25,753 nt of DNA from a virus, in the IMG/VR virus record IMGVR_UViG_3300009285_007604, positions 1 to 25,753 of that record, one strand, 5' to 3'. The notes beneath the pieces were generated by a model. That model ran no database searches. It was not told where the DNA came from and saw nothing but the letters and a program-made list of their open reading frames with translations. Shown here in pieces: positions 13,831-24,944 of this stretch (the stretch's first letter is position 1; every line of letters begins with the position of its first letter). A program made the translations under genes and the position numbers.

Positions 13831-13999
13831 AATGCAACGCCTCTGGTAAATCTACGCCCGCCAGTTTAGAAAGCACACGTTCCACCAGCAGTTGCGAAAA
13901 ACGGCGTAACGGTATGCGGTTCTGGTCCAGAATACCGGCCTCGCGCACCGCAATCTGAATCTGCTCCTCGAACTCTTCGTCACTCAGTTGAATCTTCAC
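13808..13999 (-). CDS. Small acidic helical protein between recA and sbcD
   Basis: A 63-residue protein starting at GTG (13999) with AAGGAG 7 nt upstream. It overlaps recA by 20 bp and sbcD by 23 bp. The N-terminal half is acidic (LSDEEFEEQ) and the middle is a Leu-rich helix. It resembles small recombination accessory proteins by position only, and no motif is recognised. Confidence 0.65.
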   Translation of the reverse strand: MKIQLSDEEFEEQIQIAVREAGILDQNRIPLRRFSQLLVERVLSKLAGVDLPEALHYEDPTSG

Positions 14000-14918
14000 T
14001 TTCCGTCTCCTTCCACGCCTTTACAGGAATGAACCCGCGGCCAAAGATGACGTTGAACGTAGCCTTCCAAAACGGCCGCGTAATTTTATTCTTGACCGCC
14101 TCCACGTCCACCACTGAGCCAACCAAGATCGCCTTTTGCTTCACACCGCCAAGTCGCGCCAACTTCAAACGGATTGAAGCGTGAAATTTCAGTGCATTTC
14201 CGCCCGTGGTCGTAGTTTTGCTGCCAAAACCGAAACCAATCTTCGTCCGCGTTTGATTGAGCCAAACAATTGTAGTCTGGCTCTTGCCACAAATCGTTGC
14301 CAACTTGCGACACGCGCGACTCATCAAAGCCGCCTGTACTGCGGGCTGTCTGTTATCCATGTCGCCGTCCAACTCGGACTGCGGCACGAGCGCCGCGACG
14401 GAATCCACGACGATCAGATCGACGTTTCCCGATTGCGCCAGCATCACCACTACGTCCAACGCCTGCTCGGCGCTGTCGGGTTGCGAAACGAGCAACTCGC
14501 CAACACGCACGCCAATTCGCTGCGCATAACCAATGTCCAGCGCGTGCTCGGCGTCAACAAAAGCCGCCGCGCCGCCGGCTTTTTGTGTCGCCGCGATAAA
14601 ATGCAATGCCAACGTCGTTTTACCAACCGCCTCTGGACCAAAGATTTCGAGCATCCTTCCTCTGGGATACCCTCTACCCGATCCAACGATCGGCCGATAC
14701 GACGACGAAGACACCGCGCCACTCAACAAATCGTCTAACGACTGTATGCCTGTAGGATTACAGGCAACCTCGTAGGCATCTACGTCGTTTAGCGTAATCA
14801 ACGTGTTTGCGCCAAAACTCTTGTTTACTTGTTTGCGCAAAGCAACCAGCGCTTTATTTTGCGGCGCGCGCGACGGCTCACGGCGCGGCAGCACGATCTT
14901 AATCGGTTTACGCTGCAT
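13980..14918 (-). CDS. recA: RecA recombinase
   Basis: A 312-residue RecA of the bacterial type rather than T4 UvsX. The ATG at 14918 follows GGAGGTG; an upstream ATG in frame would run through the terminator hairpin and is rejected. Key parts are Walker A GPEAVGKTT (94-102), AFVDAEHALD (119-128), Walker B LIVVDS (168-173), the VPQSELDGDM segment (loop 1 region), and TTTTGGNALKFHAS (loop 2 and after). It is slightly shorter than E. coli RecA, and the region before Walker A has a Ser-rich extension (about residues 68-82). It drives strand invasion for repair and recombination-dependent replication. It overlaps the next small gene by 20 bp. Confidence 0.96.
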   Translation of the reverse strand: MQRKPIKIVLPRREPSRAPQNKALVALRKQVNKSFGANTLITLNDVDAYEVACNPTGIQSLDDLLSGAVSSSSYRPIVGSGRGYPRGRMLEIFGPEAVGKTTLALHFIAATQKAGGAAAFVDAEHALDIGYAQRIGVRVGELLVSQPDSAEQALDVVVMLAQSGNVDLIVVDSVAALVPQSELDGDMDNRQPAVQAALMSRACRKLATICGKSQTTIVWLNQTRTKIGFGFGSKTTTTGGNALKFHASIRLKLARLGGVKQKAILVGSVVDVEAVKNKITRPFWKATFNVIFGRGFIPVKAWKETESEDSTE

Positions 14919-14931
14919 AACACCTCCAAAA

Positions 14932-14962
14932 AGTTCTCCCCGCCCGTGAGACGGGGAGAACT
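14932..14962 (-). terminator. Intrinsic terminator between the gp32-like gene and recA
   Basis: Perfect 11-bp inverted repeat (14932-14942 and 14952-14962) with a 9-nt loop, starting 5 bp after the gp32-like stop. On the minus strand the stem ends in AACTTTTT, as expected of a Rho-independent terminator. The recA ribosome site (GGAGGTG) begins only a few bases after the T run, so it may act as a partial terminator that lowers recA output relative to the DNA-binding protein. Confidence 0.85.
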
Positions 14963-14967
14963 GGTCG

Positions 14968-15852
14968 TTACTCTTCAACCGTAGCGAGAATCTTGTCGCG
15001 GATGTCCTCGTCGGTCATTCCCCGGTTCACCTGGATGTCGAGACTCTGGTTCGAGATGTACTGTTTGAGCTGCGTGCGGTCCATCCCGTTCAGCGACTCC
15101 CGCAAATCACCGGCCTCTTCTTCCTCAGCTTCCGGCGCAGCAGCCTCTTCGTCGCCTTCCTCGTACTCCACACCCTCAACGATGGCTTGTAACTCCGCGT
15201 ATGACAGCGGCACGGCCTCGCCGTCGAGACTCTTCGCCAAGCTCAGCCAGCCCCGGTCCTGAATCGGCGTCGCTGGCCCAACCTTGGAGCTGGAGTAATC
15301 GTGCTGCTTGCCCTTGATGATGTGATTGACCGTGACGTTTGCGCCAACGTCAGGATCGGAGAAGTCACCACCTTCCTCTTCGTCGGTAAAGTGATCGATC
15401 AAGATGCGCGCGACGGTCGCCGGAATCTGCGCAAGCTTCACACCGCTGTCCGGCTCAACCAAGTTGACAGCGTTCGCCACGTAAGTCGGGCCAGGCATCA
15501 ATTCCCGATACGTCTTGTTGTCGCCGCGCCGGTTGGCCTCTTCCGCCGCCTCGCAAATCGGGCAACGCTTGTCCTTGTGCTTTCCCTCCGTATGCTTCGG
15601 GCACACGCAGTACTTGTCGTTCCCCGGTCCAACGCGAAAGTGTTTGTAAACCTCTCGCAACGGAATGTCCGATCCCGGACAAGGCAAGATGCGGATCTTG
15701 GTCTTCCCCGGCTCAAACTTCAAGTACTGCGTCATCCGCGATTGCAGACTCTTCAACGTCTTGCGTGCTGCCGCCAACGCGACCGGATTCGGTCGCGCTT
15801 GACCAACGCCGGTCAACTGTTTCTTGGGCTTCGGTCTCAGTGTCAACCCCAT
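14968..15852 (-). CDS. gp32-like single-stranded DNA-binding protein
   Basis: A 294-residue protein of the T4 gp32 type. Residues 42-58 (QYLKFEPGKTKIRILPC) are the usual entry strand of the OB fold. A zinc-binding subdomain follows with C82-x-C84 and C97-P-I-C100, including nearby His residues. The core runs to about residue 228. Residues 230-250 are a strongly acidic linker, as in gp32, where the acidic tail recruits other replication proteins. Unusually, the chain then continues with a folded-looking module (256-290, NRGMTDEDIRDKI) that is also in the methyltransferase-fused protein. It protects single strands and organises replication and recombination. A terminator hairpin follows the stop. 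Confidence 0.85.
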   Translation of the reverse strand: MGLTLRPKPKKQLTGVGQARPNPVALAAARKTLKSLQSRMTQYLKFEPGKTKIRILPCPGSDIPLREVYKHFRVGPGNDKYCVCPKHTEGKHKDKRCPICEAAEEANRRGDNKTYRELMPGPTYVANAVNLVEPDSGVKLAQIPATVARILIDHFTDEEEGGDFSDPDVGANVTVNHIIKGKQHDYSSSKVGPATPIQDRGWLSLAKSLDGEAVPLSYAELQAIVEGVEYEEGDEEAAAPEAEEEEAGDLRESLNGMDRTQLKQYISNQSLDIQVNRGMTDEDIRDKILATVEE

Positions 15853-16244
15853 CTGTTGCTCCTTCCTGTTAGTTCTCGTTCACTCTCTTCGTTGATCTTC
15901 CTGTTGCGACCAATACTTTGCAGCAAATCTTTACGATGCCGAAAAGCGTCTACTACGGCGTCTAACACGTCTACTCGTGCCTCCGTGTCGTCAACTCTTC
16001 TTTGCGCCGTAAGCACCTGCGCATCGCGCTTCACGGCCGCGTCCACCACGTACTTCTTACCAGCGGCAATCCGTGTCATAGCGCTCGCCTTAGCCGCCTC
16101 CAACACCGTTTTTCTCCGGCGCAGTGTCCTCCTTTCCCCAGCAAGTAAGCTGGCGTAGTAAGCGTACATCCCAGGATGTTCAGCCATCTCTTTTTCGAGA
16201 TTGTTTACGTCAATTGCCAAGTCAACCGAGGCGTTCACCTCCAC
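15843..16244 (-). CDS. UvsY-like recombination mediator candidate
   Basis: A protein of about 133 residues if the GTG at 16244 is the start (GGGGGG lies 6 nt upstream); a GTG two codons later is also possible. It is almost entirely helical: an acidic N-terminus, a YAYYASLLAGERRTLRRRK segment (about 29-47), then long Lys/Arg/Ala helices. This layout and size match UvsY of T4, which loads recombinase on single strands covered by gp32. The match is structural impression, not clear identity. The neighbours support it strongly: the gp32-like gene follows with a 10-bp overlap and recA comes next. The end of the gene holds the AAGGAG site for the gp32-like start. Confidence 0.55.
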   Translation of the reverse strand: MEVNASVDLAIDVNNLEKEMAEHPGMYAYYASLLAGERRTLRRRKTVLEAAKASAMTRIAAGKKYVVDAAVKRDAQVLTAQRRVDDTEARVDVLDAVVDAFRHRKDLLQSIGRNRKINEESERELTGRSNRWG

Positions 16245-16278
16245 GATTGACCCCCCAGTAAATGACGTAATCAAAAAT

Positions 16279-16455
16279 TTAGGTATTAGCTTCAACCCAC
16301 ACCTCCAATACGCCATTACAGAAAACAACAACCTCAGCGCACAAGTGATGCGCCGCACGTTGGCGTAAACCAAACTGGTACGCCTCGTGAGTTGACTTGA
16401 CGTTTACGATAAACGACAAATCCCCGGTTTTATCACGCAGACAGATGTGAAACAT
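16279..16455 (-). CDS. Small 58-residue protein
   Basis: Directly after the preceding stop (TGA then ATG, no gap) a short frame codes 58 residues beginning MFHICLRDKTGDLSFIVNV. It fills an otherwise empty 210-bp interval in a genome with almost no gaps, and its composition (alternating strand-like VVVF and VWV segments) looks like a folded small protein. No Shine-Dalgarno site of its own is visible, so it would depend on coupling to the upstream gene. No function can be given. Confidence 0.5.
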   Translation of the reverse strand: MFHICLRDKTGDLSFIVNVKSTHEAYQFGLRQRAAHHLCAEVVVFCNGVLEVWVEANT

Positions 16456-17134: not shown

Positions 17135-18972
17135 TTTCCCTCCGCCCAATTTCGGGCAAGTTTAGCGTCCACTGGCGTCTTTACCAATAAACCATTCGCC
17201 AGTTCTGGCCGCAGTTTTCCGTAACTCTTAACAGCGTTTGCCATCGTAAACTCGATGTCACGCCGCGCCTCTTCCGCGCCTTTCTGCGGCACGGGCACCA
17301 ACAGCTCATCGTGAACCTGGAGCCAAAGCGCGTAGCCTTTACGCGCCAAGTCCAGCATTGCCATTTTGATAATCTCTGACGCGCTACCTTGGATCGGCGT
17401 ATTGATCGCCTGATTCTCAGCGTGATTCCGCTCTTTGAAATCTTGGCTCACGATCTGGTGTACGTAGCGTATCCGCCCGGTAAGGGTGGACACATAACGG
17501 TCTTGCCGCGCCTCTTCGATTGTTCGCTGCTTCCACGCGCGCACGCCAGGATACGTGTTAAAAAACCTTTCAATAAACTGTTTCGCCTGTTCCTCGGTAG
17601 TCTTGATCCGACCAGCAAGCGTCTTTGGCCCCATGCCATAACTAATCCCGAAGTTAATTGCTTTGGCGTATTTACGCTGCTGCGGATACTTGTCTTTGAC
17701 CGCCGCCTCGGCGCACTTCAAACCGTACGCTGCCTTTGCCGTAATCGCGTGCAAATCGCGTCCAGTGCGAAACGCCGTGAGCATCGTTCTGTCTCGACTA
17801 AAATGCGCCAACAACCGCAACTCAATCTGGTTGTAATCTGCAACGCACAGCAAGTGTCCGGGCGGGGCAATCCACGCCTGCCGCACCGTCCACGGATCAT
17901 CAGCGTTCTGCAACGGAATGTTTTGCAAGTTAGGGTTGCGGCTACTCAGCCGACCAGTCGCCGTACCACCCCCCTCGCCGCCTTCACCAAGCGAAGTCAT
18001 CCGCAGCTCAGTATGCAGGTGGTCGTTCTCGTCTAACTTTTCCAGCATCCCCAGAACAAACGTCGAACGCAACTTGGCAAGTTTCCGATAACGCAACAGC
18101 AAGTCCACGTCGTCCAGACCGGAATCGCGTATTTGCTGTAAAATTTTCGCCGTTAAGCTCGGCTTGCCACTCTTTGTACGAAGAAGAACCGGCAGCCCGT
18201 AACCGCCGTCTCGCTGACTGCCAAAAAACAAGTCAGCCAACTGCGTGTCGCTATTCAAATTCAAGTCTGGCAAACCGCAATGCTGTCTAAATACATAGCG
18301 TAACCGCAAAATATCGCGGTACAACAAGCTATTGAGCTTTGTCAGAAACGCGCGATCCACAAGACAGCCGACACGCTGCATCTTCGCCAACAAACGGTCG
18401 AACGGTACGTCCACTTGCTCGTATACGTTAAAGTACCCCATGTCTTCAAGATGTAGCTTTAACACGTCGTCCAACCGAAACGTGTCTTCGGCATCCGCCG
18501 CCGAGTAGCGAATCAGCACATCGCGCACGGTCGGATCGCCGTCGAACAACGCGCTGGCGCTATACTCGCCGCCAAAAAGTTCTGTCATCGTTTGCCGTTT
18601 GACGTGCAACCAGCGCTGTGCGCATTGCTTCAAACCATGCTGCCGCTGATCAGGGTCAGCGATGTAGTCGGCCAACAACGTGTCTCGGTAATTACCAGCT
18701 AGGTCGACAAACGGCGCTAAAATCTCCAGGTCGTAACGCGAGTTGTGCATCACGACCTTAACCGACTTCGGCGGCTTGGGAACTATCCCCGGAGTGCAAA
18801 CGTAATTCGTATGACCGTCGCAAACAGACGTAAGCACGAGCTTTCCGTACAGCCCGTCAGTTTCCGTGTCCACCGAAATTTTCGGCACACGCGCAATCGC
18901 CTGCTGCATCACTGTCCAATCCCGGTCGTTCCGCACTACTTTAAGCGGATATTTAAATACGATGGGTTGCAT
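17131..18972 (-). CDS. polA: DNA polymerase, family A, with 3'-5' exonuclease
   Basis: A 613-residue replicative DNA polymerase lacking the 5' nuclease domain of bacterial Pol I. The proofreading domain is complete: DTE (35-37), N77 with D81, and Y156-x3-D160. The polymerase domain has TGRLSSRNPNLQNIP (339-353), motif A DYNQIELR (379-386), motif B RKYAKAINFGISYG (433-446) with the usual Lys437 and Phe441, and motif C HDE (554-556). All catalytic residues are present, so the enzyme should be active in synthesis and proofreading. It should copy the phage genome together with the gp32-like protein encoded downstream. The ATG follows a GAGGAA site. The stop overlaps the next gene as ATGA. Confidence 0.97.
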   Translation of the reverse strand: MQPIVFKYPLKVVRNDRDWTVMQQAIARVPKISVDTETDGLYGKLVLTSVCDGHTNYVCTPGIVPKPPKSVKVVMHNSRYDLEILAPFVDLAGNYRDTLLADYIADPDQRQHGLKQCAQRWLHVKRQTMTELFGGEYSASALFDGDPTVRDVLIRYSAADAEDTFRLDDVLKLHLEDMGYFNVYEQVDVPFDRLLAKMQRVGCLVDRAFLTKLNSLLYRDILRLRYVFRQHCGLPDLNLNSDTQLADLFFGSQRDGGYGLPVLLRTKSGKPSLTAKILQQIRDSGLDDVDLLLRYRKLAKLRSTFVLGMLEKLDENDHLHTELRMTSLGEGGEGGGTATGRLSSRNPNLQNIPLQNADDPWTVRQAWIAPPGHLLCVADYNQIELRLLAHFSRDRTMLTAFRTGRDLHAITAKAAYGLKCAEAAVKDKYPQQRKYAKAINFGISYGMGPKTLAGRIKTTEEQAKQFIERFFNTYPGVRAWKQRTIEEARQDRYVSTLTGRIRYVHQIVSQDFKERNHAENQAINTPIQGSASEIIKMAMLDLARKGYALWLQVHDELLVPVPQKGAEEARRDIEFTMANAVKSYGKLRPELANGLLVKTPVDAKLARNWAEGK

Positions 18973-19352
18973 TTACGCCATTCCTCATCTTCGCCAAGCA
19001 GGCCACGCAAATACGCAAACTCAGCAACGCGGCCTTGCGTCAGTCTGGTTAACAACGGCAACAAACACCGCGCGCAACACGCGGCATCCGGCTGCCGACA
19101 GGCCGAGTAGTGCGACATCTCTTGCAAACCAAGCAACTTCAAACACCTCAACAAACGCTGACGTAACTGTTTCTCGCTACCCCTGGTCGACTTGTTTAGC
19201 GTGCTAAGATGCGCAATCAACTCGCTCTCGCGCATCCTCTTCAACGCTTCGCCAACCGTGCGCGAAGCGAACTTCACGCGCAACCGCTGCTTCTCGTGAA
19301 GTCCGTTTCGCGCCGGGCGGGGCATACTGATTCGCACCTTGCCAATTTTCAT
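18936..19352 (-). CDS. Small basic SAP-like protein of unknown function
   Basis: The 138-residue product starts at an ATG that overlaps the previous stop by 4 bp and has a GGAG 7 nt upstream. The N-terminus is strongly basic. Residues 36-70 (GEALKRMRESELIAHL, then EKQLRQRLLRCLKLL) resemble a SAP-like helical hairpin. Cysteines near residues 85-95 include CCARC, which might bind a metal. The last 37 bp overlap the start of the DNA polymerase gene, so the two are co-expressed. A DNA-binding role is plausible but not shown. Confidence 0.6.
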   Translation of the reverse strand: MKIGKVRISMPRPARNGLHEKQRLRVKFASRTVGEALKRMRESELIAHLSTLNKSTRGSEKQLRQRLLRCLKLLGLQEMSHYSACRQPDAACCARCLLPLLTRLTQGRVAEFAYLRGLLGEDEEWRKCNPSYLNIRLK

Positions 19353-19939
19353 TGCGCTGCTCCGTAAACTTCAATGACGCCATTTTCCAGCAAGACATTT
19401 ACAGCATTACACAGCCACTCGTTATCGAGGTCTTCATAAACCTCAGCCAACTGCGTTTTCAGTTCGCCGAACGTCAGCGGCACCTTGCTTTGCACAAGCG
19501 CTGTCACCTCAAATTCCGTGTTCATCCCCTTCTTCGCCTTTTTCTGGCCAAACGGATTAGCCACGTCACGCACCACAATACGCATGTCGTCGGTGAAGCT
19601 CTCGACTTGAACAACCTTTTCCCCCTTCGGGAGCGAGCCGTTGAACCGCTCTTGGCAAAGCTTCAAATCGAAACATAATTTACACGCGGCATTTTCCGTA
19701 TCGGGGTATTTACCGAAACACGGTGAATCTGAGATGCCGTCCATCGCGGCTTCGATAGAACGCACGTCTTGGTAGTGCGTCGCCACGCGCAACCGCAGTT
19801 CTTCCAGTCCGCCATTGCCGTTCAGACCGAGCACACCGCACTCTGCCGCTAAGTCAGTCAGCGTCATCTTATCCAAGTCCGTCACGCCACTCCGCGGTGC
19901 CGCAGCCACCGCTTTCTTGATCTTCAACTTACCCTTCAT
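19349..19939 (-). CDS. SAP-like and four-cysteine protein of unknown function
   Basis: A 196-residue protein with GGAGG 6 nt before its ATG, overlapping the sigma-like gene by 11 bp. Residues 20-55 look like a SAP/HeH-type helix-extended-loop-helix (LDKMTLTDLAAECGV then GLEELRLRV), a fold that usually binds nucleic acid. Residues 74-95 hold four cysteines in the pattern C-x11-C-x2-C-x5-C, possibly a zinc or iron-sulphur site. The C-terminal third could be a small winged helix (segment FGELKTQLAEVYEDL and beyond). The neighbours are the sigma-like gene and DNA polymerase. I cannot name the family; a transcription or replication accessory role is inferred from the motifs and location only. Confidence 0.65.
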   Translation of the reverse strand: MKGKLKIKKAVAAAPRSGVTDLDKMTLTDLAAECGVLGLNGNGGLEELRLRVATHYQDVRSIEAAMDGISDSPCFGKYPDTENAACKLCFDLKLCQERFNGSLPKGEKVVQVESFTDDMRIVVRDVANPFGQKKAKKGMNTEFEVTALVQSKVPLTFGELKTQLAEVYEDLDNEWLCNAVNVLLENGVIEVYGAAQ

Positions 19940-20417
19940 GGCAATCCTCCAGCACAGTTTTTATCTCGTTAAACGCGCGTTGCACAGAGCGCCGGCTGAC
20001 GCGCAACGAAACACTCAACACAGCACTATCTACGCATGGTGACTTCGATTTACCGTTGCGCACGCTGGCAAAACGCGCCAGATGCACGGCAAGCCGCGCC
20101 GTGCGCATCGACGGTCTGGTTAACTCGCGCAACACCGCTGCCGCTAAGTACGACAACTGCTCACCATACACAGCCAACGACGGATACTCCACGGGTTCTG
20201 CTGCGTCTAGCACGACAAACTTGTTGCGCTGCGCCGTGCGGATTACAATAAACAACCGACGCTTGACCGCACCAACGACGTACTCTGGCTTGTACCCCAA
20301 CGGCGACAACGATGCTTGCCACGCCGCTAACATCGCCTCTTGCAAGCAGTCGTCATACTCGCAGTAGTCAGCACAATAACGATGTGCGCGTCGCGCCAAA
20401 CTCTCGATTACGCCCAC
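19929..20417 (-). CDS. Sigma-70-like transcription factor
   Basis: This is a 162-residue protein starting at a GTG (20417) placed 6 nt after a perfect AGGAGG. The GTG overlaps the cobT stop (TAGTG). Residues 3-65 resemble sigma region 2: the helix with YDDCLQEAMLAAW (21-33) matches the DDLLQEA core-binding pattern, and a basic aromatic helix follows. Residues 132-155 (ending RVSRRSVQRAFNEIKTVL) form a helix-turn-helix like region 4. The size is near that of small ECF sigma factors. It could redirect host RNA polymerase to phage promoters, or act as a sigma-like protein in late transcription as T4 gp55 does. The frame runs 27 codons further upstream, but that part lies in cobT and has no ribosome site. 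Confidence 0.68.
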   Translation of the reverse strand: MGVIESLARRAHRYCADYCEYDDCLQEAMLAAWQASLSPLGYKPEYVVGAVKRRLFIVIRTAQRNKFVVLDAAEPVEYPSLAVYGEQLSYLAAAVLRELTRPSMRTARLAVHLARFASVRNGKSKSPCVDSAVLSVSLRVSRRSVQRAFNEIKTVLEDCHEG

Positions 20418-22105
20418 TACTTGCCTCCTTTCATGTAAATCTTGAACACGTCCGACACCACTTGCGGTAAGTCTTCCGGTTTTTGCAGCACCGTACAAAA
20501 CTCTTTACCGTAAAGCCGCAGCACCGTGTCGCCAAGCAATCCGATACAGATAACCTTTACACCTGCTTTGCGTATCCGCGCCACACTAGCGACAATGTGC
20601 GGGTAAAACGCCGTAGCGTTATCGCCGTCGTCTTTTCCGCTTTGCCGAGCTTCCTTCTTCTGCGTGTGGTACTCGAAGTTTTCTGGAATACCGTCTGAAA
20701 GAACCAACAGCAACTTGTCTTTACCTAGTAAGTAGCGCATCCGCTCAAACGCGCATAGCAGCACCTCTCCATCGTAGGAAAAACCCTTACTACGCAGCAC
20801 GCGATTTCGCACCGCACGCCAGCTATCACCGTACTTCTTTACCCAGTCAATCACGATGTTTGAATTGCGGGAATACACGCCGGACGTAGACGCAGTATCG
20901 AACGTGTGATGTGCAAACACTTCAAAACGCACACCACGCATCGCGGCCAGCAAGTCACCTATTGAGCGTACAGTCTCGTCCACCAGGCTCGTCTTGCCGT
21001 AGTGCATAACTGACCCGCTCATGTCCACCATGACCGACACAACGAGGTTCGTATCGCGTAATCGCTGCACTGGCTCCTTAAACACGCGCCGATCTGTCCT
21101 GGCGCAGTGCAAATTACGCCGATCCAAAATTCCTGACTCTGCCCGCCGGTAATACGGACGCAACGACAAAAACTCTCGCGCCGCTGACAACGGTATAGCT
21201 GGCTGTTCAAACGGCGCCATCGGCAACTCAGACTCAATGATTTGCACACCCGGAGCCACGGTATACCGACTCCCATCACCTGTCACTACCGTCTGATTGA
21301 GCATCTCCGACGCCCCGCTAAACACGTCTTTAAGCGCCTGCCCAAAATTATTTGGCAGACCGCGAGACAGACCGCGAACGCGCTTCCCGGATTTCTCCGT
21401 CTCACCTTCGCCTTCGCCTTCGCCTTCGCCTTCGCCTTCGCCTTCGCCTTCGCCTTCGCCTTCGCCTTCGCCTTCGCCTTCGCTTGATTGCGGCTGCATC
21501 GCCGGATCTATTTTCTTTATCTCTTCGCTAATTACGCGAAACACGTTATCGCTCTCGTCGTACACGTCTTGCAGCGTTACCAGCCCGTTTAACCGCTGCC
21601 GTTGCTCCGGGTTGCAAAGACGCTTAACCAGCGCCGGCCAACCAAGCTGGCCGACTACACGATCCATGCCTACTGCGCACCACACAGCAAATGCACTTAT
21701 CGCGCGCTCCCAAGCGTTCATGGACGCAACGCGCCGACTCTTTCCCCAATTGGCTACCGCCCATTTATCTTTGTACTCCAGGTAAAACTGCGCACCTGGA
21801 TACTGCCGTTTACAGATACGTTCAATACGATAATCCTCTAAGACGTTATCTATTTGCTGGCGCAACTTAGCAGTCGGATCGCAAAACGCGCCAGAGAATC
21901 GGGAAACGACAGGTGTGTGCTGCAAGTGGCAAACTTCGTGCAACGCCACTCCCGCTCCAACATCACCGTCGTAACTGTACTTATCCGGGTCAGGCAGCGT
22001 AACCTTCCTCAGATCCGTGCCAGCGATTTCTCCCCACTCTAGCGGAATCTTCTTGCCATAGGCCAACGCCAAAAACTCCGGCAGCCACGCTTTAAGACTG
22101 GCCAT
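20417..22105 (-). CDS. cobT: CobT-like VWA-domain protein with HExxH motif
   Basis: A 562-residue partner of the ATPase encoded just upstream. Residues 50-100 carry HEVCH (56-60) followed by LEDYRIE (89-95), the pattern of the metallopeptidase-like region found at the N-terminus of VWA proteins of this class. Residues 209-235 are a pure Glu-Gly repeat, matching the position of the acidic linker of bacterial CobT. Residues 350-560 are a von Willebrand A domain with the metal site DMSGS (361-365) and LSDG (469-472). A CobS-CobT pair forms a AAA+/VWA machine. Whether the HExxH site binds zinc or cuts protein cannot be seen. The stop TAG shares a base with the GTG start of the sigma-like gene. 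Confidence 0.85.
   Translation of the reverse strand: MASLKAWLPEFLALAYGKKIPLEWGEIAGTDLRKVTLPDPDKYSYDGDVGAGVALHEVCHLQHTPVVSRFSGAFCDPTAKLRQQIDNVLEDYRIERICKRQYPGAQFYLEYKDKWAVANWGKSRRVASMNAWERAISAFAVWCAVGMDRVVGQLGWPALVKRLCNPEQRQRLNGLVTLQDVYDESDNVFRVISEEIKKIDPAMQPQSSEGEGEGEGEGEGEGEGEGEGEGEGEGETEKSGKRVRGLSRGLPNNFGQALKDVFSGASEMLNQTVVTGDGSRYTVAPGVQIIESELPMAPFEQPAIPLSAAREFLSLRPYYRRAESGILDRRNLHCARTDRRVFKEPVQRLRDTNLVVSVMVDMSGSVMHYGKTSLVDETVRSIGDLLAAMRGVRFEVFAHHTFDTASTSGVYSRNSNIVIDWVKKYGDSWRAVRNRVLRSKGFSYDGEVLLCAFERMRYLLGKDKLLLVLSDGIPENFEYHTQKKEARQSGKDDGDNATAFYPHIVASVARIRKAGVKVICIGLLGDTVLRLYGKEFCTVLQKPEDLPQVVSDVFKIYMKGGK
21405..21482 (-). repeat. Perfect 13-copy hexanucleotide tandem repeat inside cobT
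   Basis: CCTTCG is repeated 13 times without a mismatch on the plus strand (78 bp), coding 13 Glu-Gly pairs in the linker of the CobT-like protein. Perfect identity of the units despite codon degeneracy points to recent expansion by slippage rather than slow selection for the protein alone. Confidence 0.97.
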
Positions 22106-23057
22106 CTTGTTTGCCCTCTTGGTTGCCGAAGACCAGCGTAATAAGCTTCGCTACGGCCTCCCGTGTATCGGTAGGATACTCATTGAGAAACGTCAGGTTC
22201 GCTGCTAACCAGACATCAGAGAACATCGTGTACTTTTCCGCCCAGGCGAGCAGCCTACGCGGACTAAGTGTGGCCTTACTCGCACCGAGCTTAAACGACT
22301 CGCGCACTTTACCGGCCACATCTACAAAAGCTCGCGCTTCCGATCGCGTCAACGTCGAAAACCGCAATGCCAGCATCTTCTCCTCAGCATCCACGGGCAA
22401 AAACTCTTGCTGCAAGAAGTAGGAAAAACGGTCCCGATCCGCCTCAGATTGCGGCAACGTATTCGCATAAACGGCGCCGTCCTCTCCTCTCCCCCACGTA
22501 TTCGTGGTAGCAACCACGCGGAAATCTTCGTGAGCGCTAACCACCTCACCGCCACGCTCCGCCAAGACAAGCTGCGACTTGTCCTCCATCACGGCCTTCA
22601 AGACGTTAACCGCCAATGGATCAAGTGAGTCGTATTCGTCAATCAGCAACAGCGCGCCTTCGCGCATGGCACGCGGCACTACGCCGTCCACCCACACAGT
22701 CTCGTTATTGCGCAGCACGAAACCACCGAGCAACTCCGAGCGCGTAAGCTGCGCGTCACCGTTTAAGCGATAGACGGGAATACGCAATCGCGCGGCGACG
22801 TTCAAAACCAGGCTGGTCTTGCCCGTACCGTGCGTACCTTTGATCCACACGCGATTACGCACACCACGCGACAACGCGATACAAAGCGCAGTAGTGTTAG
22901 AAACGTCAAACACGAAATAGTTGTCGAACGGAGGAATCATTGGATGACAGCTCGTTCGCACCACTACAACCACATCGGGAAACTGCGAACCGAACAGTTC
23001 GCGCAGAGACGCCAGACGTTTCGGATTATCCGGCAACTCCGAAAATCGCCTTCTCAT
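22092..23057 (-). CDS. cobS: CobS/MoxR-like AAA+ ATPase
   Basis: A 321-residue AAA+ ATPase of the CobS/MoxR (AAA_5) type. Walker A is GTHGTGKT at 74-81, Walker B is LLLIDE at 136-141, sensor 1 is the TTNT segment around 184-187, and an Arg-rich EADRDRF (205-211) lies where the arginine finger is expected. In bacteria CobS works with CobT and CobN to insert cobalt into the corrin ring. MoxR relatives act as chaperones with VWA-domain partners. No CobN is present here and phages do not make cobalamin, so a remodelling role with the next gene is more likely. The ATG follows GAGGTG with 5 nt spacing. The gene overlaps its cobT-like partner by 14 bp. Confidence 0.88.
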   Translation of the reverse strand: MRRRFSELPDNPKRLASLRELFGSQFPDVVVVVRTSCHPMIPPFDNYFVFDVSNTTALCIALSRGVRNRVWIKGTHGTGKTSLVLNVAARLRIPVYRLNGDAQLTRSELLGGFVLRNNETVWVDGVVPRAMREGALLLIDEYDSLDPLAVNVLKAVMEDKSQLVLAERGGEVVSAHEDFRVVATTNTWGRGEDGAVYANTLPQSEADRDRFSYFLQQEFLPVDAEEKMLALRFSTLTRSEARAFVDVAGKVRESFKLGASKATLSPRRLLAWAEKYTMFSDVWLAANLTFLNEYPTDTREAVAKLITLVFGNQEGKQDGQS

Positions 23058-23318: not shown

Positions 23319-23324
23319 ACTAAA

Positions 23325-23356
23325 ACAAAGGGGGGAGCGCTAACTCCCCCCTTTGT
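23325..23356 (-). terminator. Intrinsic terminator after the methyltransferase gene
   Basis: Perfect 12-bp inverted repeat (arms 23325-23336 and 23345-23356, AAAGGGGGGA core) with an 8-nt loop, 16 bp past the stop codon. Read on the minus strand the stem is followed by TTTTAGT, so it fits a Rho-independent terminator for leftward transcription. The next gene starts only 6 nt after the hairpin, so some read-through is likely. Confidence 0.8.
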
Positions 23357-23372
23357 CCCTCATTGCAATCGC

Positions 23373-24161
23373 CTACAGCTTGGCAAGCATCGTCCGCAAC
23401 TTGCGGATGAGCGCTTCGGCCAGCGCATCGGCCAACTCGGACACGTCGGCTTCGGCTTCCGGCTCGGCTTCGGACACGGCGGCTTCGGCTTCCGGCTCGG
23501 CTTCGGACACGTCGGCTTCGGCTTCGGCTTCGGCTTCCGGCTCGGCTTCCGGCTCGGCTTCGGCTTCGGCTTCGGCTTCCGGCGAGCCGGCCATGCTCTC
23601 GTTGATCTTGTCGCGGATGTCACCGTCAGTCATCCCCTTGTTGACGATGATGCCCAATTCGTAGTCTTTGATGACCAACTTCAACTGCTCGCGCGTGAGC
23701 TTGTCGATGTCGACGGACCCATCATCCTCGAACGGGATGCCGGTTGTCGCAGCTTTGGGCGCGGCCTTGGCCACAGTCATCACTTTCTTCGCTACGGTCG
23801 GTTTCGCCATCGCTTTCTTCGCCATCTTCTTCGTCTCCTTCGGATGTTTGCCCGGTTGTTTCGCAGAACCAGTGTTGCCGAGCTTCAACGACTGATCCAT
23901 TTTCTTAATGAAGGACTCGGAAAGATCCAAGTCCGGGGGAACTTTGCCGGCATAGCGCACGTACAGATCGTGCGTTTTCTTGTACGCCTGCTCGCCGAAA
24001 TTTTTGGCCTGCTCCTCCAACGTCTTCGACACGGTACGCGCGTGCATCCGATCGGCCAGCCAGCGCTGCCAATACTTATTGAGCCGAACCCAGTACTTGC
24101 TCAACTCTGCCTTGCTCACTTTCTGCACGTTACCGTTCTTCTTGCTGTTCGTCAATCCCAT
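23373..24161 (-). CDS. Probable internal gene: basic, histone-like protein with C-terminal module
   Basis: The ATG at 24161 lies in frame inside the methyltransferase gene and follows a perfect AGGAGGTG (24174-24167) with 5 nt spacing, one of the best ribosome sites in the window. Translation from here gives a 262-residue protein lacking the methylase domain. It has a helical N-terminal part, a Lys/Ala-rich stretch (about residues 110-140), the DIRDKI-type module, and a Glu/Ala acidic tail. The layout suggests two adjacent genes that became joined by loss of a stop, or a deliberate in-frame nested gene. The methylase domain finishes near residue 255 of the long frame, just before this start. 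I infer expression from the ribosome site; the sequence cannot show the relative amounts. Confidence 0.55.
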   Translation of the reverse strand: MGLTNSKKNGNVQKVSKAELSKYWVRLNKYWQRWLADRMHARTVSKTLEEQAKNFGEQAYKKTHDLYVRYAGKVPPDLDLSESFIKKMDQSLKLGNTGSAKQPGKHPKETKKMAKKAMAKPTVAKKVMTVAKAAPKAATTGIPFEDDGSVDIDKLTREQLKLVIKDYELGIIVNKGMTDGDIRDKINESMAGSPEAEAEAEAEPEAEPEAEAEAEADVSEAEPEAEAAVSEAEPEAEADVSELADALAEALIRKLRTMLAKL

Positions 24162-24944
24162 CGCTGCACCTCCTGTTTGTTTACCACATTCGACAGTCAG
24201 CATTATTGCATTGACCGTCGTGCCAGACTCAGCAAACGACTTTTCCGGCAGATCGCTCACTGAGTAACTGTAATTACCCAACAATTCCCAGAACTTGTGC
24301 GTCTTGCTATTCGTGCGAAACTTCGCGCCGGCCGACATAAGCGTCACCAGCACACCACCTGGCGCGAGAAATTTCAATGCGTGCGTAACGTGATCGATGT
24401 CCGCCTGTTTAGCGAACGGCGGATTCATCAAAATCCGGTCGTACCGCAAACTACTTTTGCCAAACTCCGGGTTAGACCGTAAGAAGTCGCACTGCTTGAC
24501 GTTTACGTTAAAGCGATAAAGACTTTGCGCACGACCTTCGTGCAACTCCGCACACGTCACTTGCTCCGGTTGCAGCTTCGTCAACTCGCCAGCAATCGCA
24601 CCATCGCCAGCGCTCGGCTCTAAATACGTTAATCCGGGTTTTATCTTAGCCGCGCGAATCATCCGTTGCACAACCGCCGCCGGTGTGCGAAAAAATCCGT
24701 CTTCTTGCGCCGTCCGCACTTCGCCAGACGCGAAAATGTCTTTGAACGAGTCACGTCCAGCGGCCGAAGAGAAGACGTGCCCTTTGCATTTACGGTCCCA
24801 CTTGCCACCGGCTGCCTCTAACACTTTGTTGACCGCCATGTACAACTTACGGTCAAGTTGTCCGACTGGCAAAAAGTAGACCACGCCAGCGCCACTCCAC
24901 GTCCCGCGCCGCAGTACGGTGAGAACTTCGTCAGAAATTTTCAT
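23373..24944 (-). CDS. SAM-dependent DNA methyltransferase fused to a Lys/Ala-rich and acidic-repeat tail
   Basis: The protein has 523 residues. Residues 25-85 are a small N-terminal module common in phage and plasmid methylases. Residues 87-255 are a class I methyltransferase: LEPSAGDG (108-115) is the SAM-binding motif and NPPF (174-177) is the catalytic motif of N6-adenine methylases. Residues 262-360 are helical and basic. Residues 370-400 are Lys/Ala-rich like histone H1. Residues 416-448 form a module that is also found at the end of the gp32-like protein of this window. Residues 455-503 are an EAEAEP-type acidic repeat. A textbook ribosome site and ATG sit in frame at residue 262, so two products are likely. 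A terminator hairpin follows the stop. Methylase activity is well supported; the target site is not known. Confidence 0.85.
   Translation of the reverse strand: MKISDEVLTVLRRGTWSGAGVVYFLPVGQLDRKLYMAVNKVLEAAGGKWDRKCKGHVFSSAAGRDSFKDIFASGEVRTAQEDGFFRTPAAVVQRMIRAAKIKPGLTYLEPSAGDGAIAGELTKLQPEQVTCAELHEGRAQSLYRFNVNVKQCDFLRSNPEFGKSSLRYDRILMNPPFAKQADIDHVTHALKFLAPGGVLVTLMSAGAKFRTNSKTHKFWELLGNYSYSVSDLPEKSFAESGTTVNAIMLTVECGKQTGGAAMGLTNSKKNGNVQKVSKAELSKYWVRLNKYWQRWLADRMHARTVSKTLEEQAKNFGEQAYKKTHDLYVRYAGKVPPDLDLSESFIKKMDQSLKLGNTGSAKQPGKHPKETKKMAKKAMAKPTVAKKVMTVAKAAPKAATTGIPFEDDGSVDIDKLTREQLKLVIKDYELGIIVNKGMTDGDIRDKINESMAGSPEAEAEAEAEPEAEPEAEAEAEADVSEAEPEAEAAVSEAEPEAEADVSELADALAEALIRKLRTMLAKL
23436..23582 (-). 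repeat. Degenerate hexamer repeat (GAAGCC type) coding a Glu/Ala/Pro tail
   Basis: On the plus strand this is a run of GGCTTC units mixed with GGCTCC and GACACG variants. It encodes residues 455-503 of the long methyltransferase frame, alternating Glu-Ala and Glu-Pro blocks divided by three similar spacers (ADVSEAE, AAVSEAE, ADVSEL). The higher-order unit is about 42 bp. The units are multiples of 3, so length changes would keep the frame. Confidence 0.85.

Follow-up and report, generated by a model that had tools for sequence, protein, structure and literature searches.

The C-terminal tails of single-stranded DNA-binding proteins (SSBs) are the usual hub to which replication and repair proteins are recruited, mostly through short disordered peptides. 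In phage T4, UvsX, UvsY, gp59 and Dda are all recruited through the C-terminal region of gp32 (PMC11551737, PMC3016280). Dda binds residues ~248-270, which can be separated from the acidic end (residues 273-301); the latter shows weak binding and presumably influences DNA binding (PMC11551737). We analyzed here a viral record (IMG/VR IMGVR_UViG_3300009285_007604; hereafter the window) of 25753 bases, taken in full, which is classified as linear and is probably fragmentary, and in which a gp32-type SSB and a DNA methyltransferase share a small predicted domain. As in the A domain of T4 gp32, the element thought to recruit lies in the C-terminal tail of the SSB, together with an acidic stretch, and UvsY-like and RecA/UvsX genes flank the SSB gene. 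However, while gp32 has a short peptide and then an acidic end, the window SSB has an acidic linker and then a predicted folded helix-extended loop-helix (HeH) domain; moreover, in contrast to T4, a second enzyme of the window phage bears the domain of the SSB tail. A first, sequence-only reading of the window had opposed recruitment by the acidic tail of gp32 to a domain added in this phage. The added domain is borne out, but recruitment by the acidic tail proper has to be amended, the Dda-binding part of gp32 being located at residues ~248-270 (PMC11551737).

All the genes at issue (SSB, methyltransferase and neighbours) are on the minus strand. The 294-residue product of 14968-15852 is predicted to be a gp32-like SSB, with ssDNA binding and recruitment of replication or recombination proteins as its presumed functions. 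Indeed, its core is matched by Pfam gp32 (E=8.4e-7, above cut-off) and by the SSB family PHROG 1192 (E=1.4e-14), and its CPICE motif, a conserved Cys cluster, is common to the SSB of Edwardsiella phage ZHS. The core is followed by an acidic linker (residues 229-249, EYEEGDEEAAAPEAEEEEAGD, 15106-15168) and by the HeH module (residues 253-294, 14971-15096). When used as single-protein queries, neither the SSB nor the polymerase had close relatives in IMG/VR, and no relative of the SSB was found in GTDB genomes. Directly upstream of the SSB gene, a UvsY-like protein is encoded at 15843-16373 (PHROG 231, E=2e-5; PHROG 2058, E=2e-15) and, directly downstream, a RecA/UvsX-type recombinase at 13980-14918 (Pfam RecA, E=5e-89), the start of which (ATG at 14918) was inferred from the ribosome-binding site. 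At several other loci, too, UvsY-like homologs are encoded close to the SSB, and the UvsY-like/SSB/RecA arrangement is partly common to other phages in our set.

The repeat that had been claimed between the SSB tail and a 523-residue protein encoded at 23373-24944 is real. SSB residues 253-294 align with residues 412-453 of this protein (23586-23711), 19 of about 35 positions being identical in a gap-free stretch; the BLOSUM62 local score is 87, while none of 5000 shuffles exceeded 49. With the SSB tail as query against the whole record, only two places were matched, the second copy being found at E=8e-8. A fortuitous or convergent likeness of two short helical tails might be considered, since the module is short, its surroundings are of low complexity and HeH-class folds are common; this explanation is already contradicted by the above statistics, as well as by the homology of the SSB copy to the tails of other SSBs, and we regard it as extremely improbable. 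Identity between the two copies is concentrated in the loop and the third helix (13 of 16 positions, versus 6 of 26 elsewhere; Fisher p=4e-4), a hot-spot that was picked after the data were seen. At the DNA level, the 17-mer ATCTTGTCGCGGATGTC occurs exactly at 14990-15006 and at 23605-23621, as had been noted, and it is among the very few repeated 17-mers outside low-complexity stretches, 27 of 30 Markov-simulated windows being devoid of any. Yet this recurrence is mostly expected from the shared peptide and codon bias: the identical codon is used at 12 of the 19 identical residues, for 8.8 expected from phage codon usage (p=0.085), so that the DNA match hardly strengthens the case made by the proteins. 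A recent DNA duplication, as could be read from the 17-base identity, was thus rejected, and the duplication of the module is probably not recent.

The surroundings of the two copies are less alike than initially described. The module had been considered C-terminal in both proteins; this is correct for the SSB copy, at the end of the tail, whereas the methyltransferase copy is internal, 70 residues before the stop. The 270-residue extension that contains this second copy comprises, in order, a helical region of no assigned family, a Lys/Ala-rich basic linker (residues ~362-402, 23739-23861), the HeH module, an acidic AE/PE repeat (residues 454-501, 23442-23585) and a short basic, amphipathic helical segment reaching residue 523 (helices assigned by eye). 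Both copies had also been placed beside acidic linkers, but only the SSB copy is preceded by one, the methyltransferase copy being preceded by the basic linker, and the acidic stretches thus adjoin the module on opposite sides, before copy 1 and after copy 2. Regarding the strong terminators supposed to be the only two of the window, a hairpin with a T-run does lie 3' of each gene, between the SSB and RecA genes (14932-14960, -20.3 kcal/mol) and downstream of the methyltransferase gene (23324-23356, -25.7 kcal/mol), both on the minus strand. However, a third hairpin of similar strength (-22.9 kcal/mol) is present near 2264-2305, inside an ORF, and a simple scan showed no excess of terminator-like sites (17, for 16.9 expected). 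These hairpins are gene architecture common to both genes and no part of the module; as markers of the module they were rejected, the methyltransferase copy being internal.

Among annotated phages, only Edwardsiella phage ZHS has a detectable relative of the window SSB. A similar stretch is found in the C-terminal part of the ZHS protein, after a charged linker, and it aligns with the window SSB module without gaps over 36 residues, one of 5000 shuffles being as good. The related SSBs of Vibrio Mardecavirus phages also bear the module. When 2.9 million IMG/VR viral contigs were scanned with the ZHS and Vibrio modules only, without the SSB core, nine loci were retrieved, all of them encoding gp32-like SSBs. 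With an HMM of other SSB tails that contained no window sequence, the window SSB tail outscored each of 5000 shuffles, and the methyltransferase copy was equalled or exceeded by 23 of 5000. In an open search with this profile, the window module was not found, and its distant homology to other SSB tails rests on the shuffle tests and on its position. Similarly, neither the DNA pattern nor the two-copy module alignment had a match elsewhere in IMG/VR, and tblastn with the 42-residue SSB tail gave none in annotated phages.

The modules of ZHS, Vibrio Mardecavirus and the IMG/VR loci L190-L196 are alike in position, length and pattern, and are statistically related to the window SSB module. They are nevertheless far more acidic and have another motif in the loop and third helix, the motif VNxGMTDxDIRDKI of the two window copies not being kept in other SSBs. 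They also have a single convincing carrier per searched record, a profile search of six module-bearing records having returned no convincing second one. Other SSBs have ends of different types: plain acidic tails (SPO1, Microcystis phage), short Asp/Leu ends (SSU5, hairong) or a Cys-rich motif (loci L100 and L055). As the module is absent from these proteins and present in the ZHS, Mardecavirus and IMG/VR tails, sequence comparison indicates that it has long been attached to the tail of gp32-like SSBs, without being present in all of them. We found no description of it on phage SSBs in the literature, only part of which was covered.

Several other stretches were considered in the course of these searches. 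A weak motif-like match at L127 was discarded, as it lies in a different protein type, by eye another OB-fold DNA-binding protein. In L196 (2906-4141), the module of the gp32-like SSB tail is preceded by a stretch of similar pattern (LDDLDEFIDENDFDVEITQKSRFPKVKRQLKKLI), possibly in tandem, for which the profile gave no support. In L013 (1462-2673, Vibrio phage BH21-A1), the SSB tail is unrelated and hydrophobic beyond the module, probably owing to a frameshift in the record relative to its relatives. Within the window, two minus-strand genes encode a 138-residue protein (18936-19352) with a SAP-like pattern by eye (MRESELIAHLSTLNKSTRGSEKQLRQRLLRCL) and no Pfam or PHROG match, and a 196-residue protein (19349-19939) with a Cys-rich motif (CFGKYPDTENAACKLCFDLKLCQERF) laid out like the C-terminal Cys motif of the L100 and L055 SSBs. 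In the latter, the Cys-rich motif is preceded by a stretch that is SAP-like by eye, without statistical support and with a poor structure model. Both proteins were rejected as third and fourth copies of the module, since sequence comparison did not support them and the model of the second had a pLDDT of 41.

The second carrier is, by its motifs, an N6-adenine-type DNA methyltransferase, the methylated base being a prediction. Indeed, its N-terminal domain (residues ~1-252) is matched above cut-off by N6_Mtase and MTS, and its EPSAG and NPPF motifs are invariant in the alignment with its relatives. These relatives are encoded at 80 IMG/VR and 62 GTDB loci, and nearly all of the 144 ORFs that span the C-terminal end of the domain stop there, at about 252 residues. 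Among these 144 viral and bacterial ORFs, none but the window's carries the module. The annotated phage enzymes share the catalytic domain, which is ~38-43% identical to the one of the window protein, and the stand-alone methyltransferases of KLER1-1, R6L, ZS04 and L055 also have the NPPF motif in common with it; they end, however, at ~246-262 residues, without extension and without module. Three other relatives (L236, L229 and L244) have C-terminal extensions that are ParB-like by eye, another DNA-targeting addition. Close to the window methyltransferase gene, a VWA-domain protein with a long Gly-Glu repeat (20417-22105, minus strand) adjoins a MoxR-type AAA+ gene (22092-23057), the two forming a CobS/CobT-like pair.

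The sequence-only reading had proposed to look for other proteins of related phages ending in the same module. Distant phage SSB tails do end in it, but no other methyltransferase with the module was found. Since other SSBs carry the module in their tail while the other methyltransferases examined do not, there is strong support for an ancestral position of the module in the SSB. The METHYLTRANSFERASE copy would then be the derived one, most parsimoniously copied from the SSB module in this lineage. The duplication across both proteins is thus upheld as a homology, the module being an addition not found in the relatives of this methyltransferase. Alternatively to a common partner, the module could work inside its own protein, in tail regulation, stability or self-association, the methyltransferase copy being a passenger of domain shuffling without common partner. 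Its optional occurrence across SSBs and the location of the SSB copy at the very end of the tail would fit this possibility, as would the role proposed for the acidic end of gp32 in regulating its own DNA binding (PMC11551737). Against this, 19 of 35 residues have stayed identical between the two window copies while little synonymous signal is left, as would be expected if the protein sequences were under a common constraint, and a purely internal role is rather unlikely.

The fold of the module brings further information. AlphaFold2 was run on an alignment of the two window copies only, with the methyltransferase copy as second row, and the one usable model is a compact, independent domain (mean pLDDT 88.8) of 49 residues, with a lead-in helix, a helix at 14-23, a 12-residue extended loop (24-35) and a helix at 36-48. 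After realignment of the top-ranked Foldseek structures, the C-terminal domain of T4 endonuclease VII (EndoVII; residues 108-154; 1en7, 1e7l, 2qnf) came out nearest among solved folds; it superimposes at 1.1 A over 47 residues with 6% identity and a Z of 7.7, although values below 8 may reflect a common arrangement. The other leading neighbours are the Rho N-terminus, the LEM domain of emerin (6ghd_H, Z 5.7) and the SAP domain of PIAS1, and matches in a library of predicted viral structures include T4 gp49 and entries named 'HeH/LEM domain', 'LEM-like' and 'Rho termination factor'. The Foldseek E-values are all above 0.1 and individually not significant, as expected for 49 residues, and the weight of these matches lies in the consistency of the class. 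At the sequence level, the isolated modules had no Pfam SAP, HeH or Rho_N match reaching the gathering score, with E up to 10 and within HMMER filter limits. No meaningful match was obtained for the window modules among Pfam, PHROG and PDB sequences either: a weak Flagellin_IN match was taken as chance, and a match to PHROG 3281 (endonuclease VII) was not significant (E=0.44), while agreeing with the fold result. Altogether, modelling strongly supports a ~42-residue HeH domain that would fold separately, and the HeH/LEM/SAP-like fold initially guessed is supported by the structure predicted from both tails aligned.

This resemblance leads to the question of what the module binds. Nucleic acid binding is attributed to SAP domains, to the Rho N-terminus and to the C-terminal domain of EndoVII, a junction-binding nuclease. 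The module might accordingly contact nucleic acid directly, providing a second duplex or junction site on the SSB and a higher DNA affinity on the methyltransferase. Besides the fold, with EndoVII first and Rho and SAP among the next, such a role would suit two carriers that both act on DNA and the Lys/Ala-rich basic stretch that precedes the methyltransferase module. However, while the helix, extended loop and helix, together with the preceding helix, are arranged as in the EndoVII domain, the likeness to EndoVII is by fold only, without significant sequence similarity (6%), and the carriers differ: no zinc/HNH-type nuclease domain of endonuclease VII was found in the SSB or the methyltransferase, only the small-domain fold matching. 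The net charge is also opposite, all the module copies ranging from -1 to -16, i.e., acidic to near neutral, for +3 in the basic EndoVII domain, a contrast likewise picked a posteriori. Typical DNA-binding SAP domains are basic, and in the SSB the module is tethered by an acidic linker. Direct binding is hence possible but somewhat doubtful. In LEM domains, which bind BAF and which the module resembles by fold only, the face formed by the loop and the third helix is the side that holds the partner. We favour protein docking over direct DNA binding because the module is acidic or near neutral and because identity is concentrated in the loop and the third helix, even if the nearest solved fold, being basic and from a junction-binding nuclease, counts against docking.

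It is thus most likely, at about even confidence, that the module is a protein-docking domain of the SSB tail, and that the methyltransferase took it over as a means of reaching the partner or nucleoprotein complex of the SSB. Located on the tail beyond the acidic linker, it would be displayed along the coated ssDNA and would recruit or hold one or more recombination or replication proteins, the first candidates being the RecA and UvsY-like proteins encoded on either side of the SSB gene. Since the loop and third-helix motif is not kept in other SSBs, this partner would have to be lineage-specific. The methyltransferase module would bind the same partner or nucleoprotein complex as the SSB module, so that the enzyme would be brought to where phage DNA is replicated or recombined. 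The parts of this explanation that we infer are docking, the sharing of a partner and the coupling of methylation to replication. A link between this type of methyltransferase and replication is supported by the L055 locus, where a relative is encoded inside a replication operon with clamp, polymerase, clamp loader, UvsY-like, SSB and RecA genes. This compact phage operon (L055, 1-8441) also contains a helicase-like gene and a uracil-DNA glycosylase fused to a polymerase-type protein (functions assigned by eye), and its gp32-like SSB has a Cys tail.

The shared module suggests that both proteins may be brought to the same place on replicating DNA. A tentative extension is that the window enzyme is a fork-coupled methyltransferase, steered by the recruitment domain of the SSB, new phage DNA being methylated at the replication or recombination complex. 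If the methyltransferase is so recruited, newly copied phage DNA could be shielded from restriction immediately. A folded and optional SSB-tail module that is common with a modifying enzyme offers a direct, small and testable way into the question of how enzymes are assembled on phage DNA.
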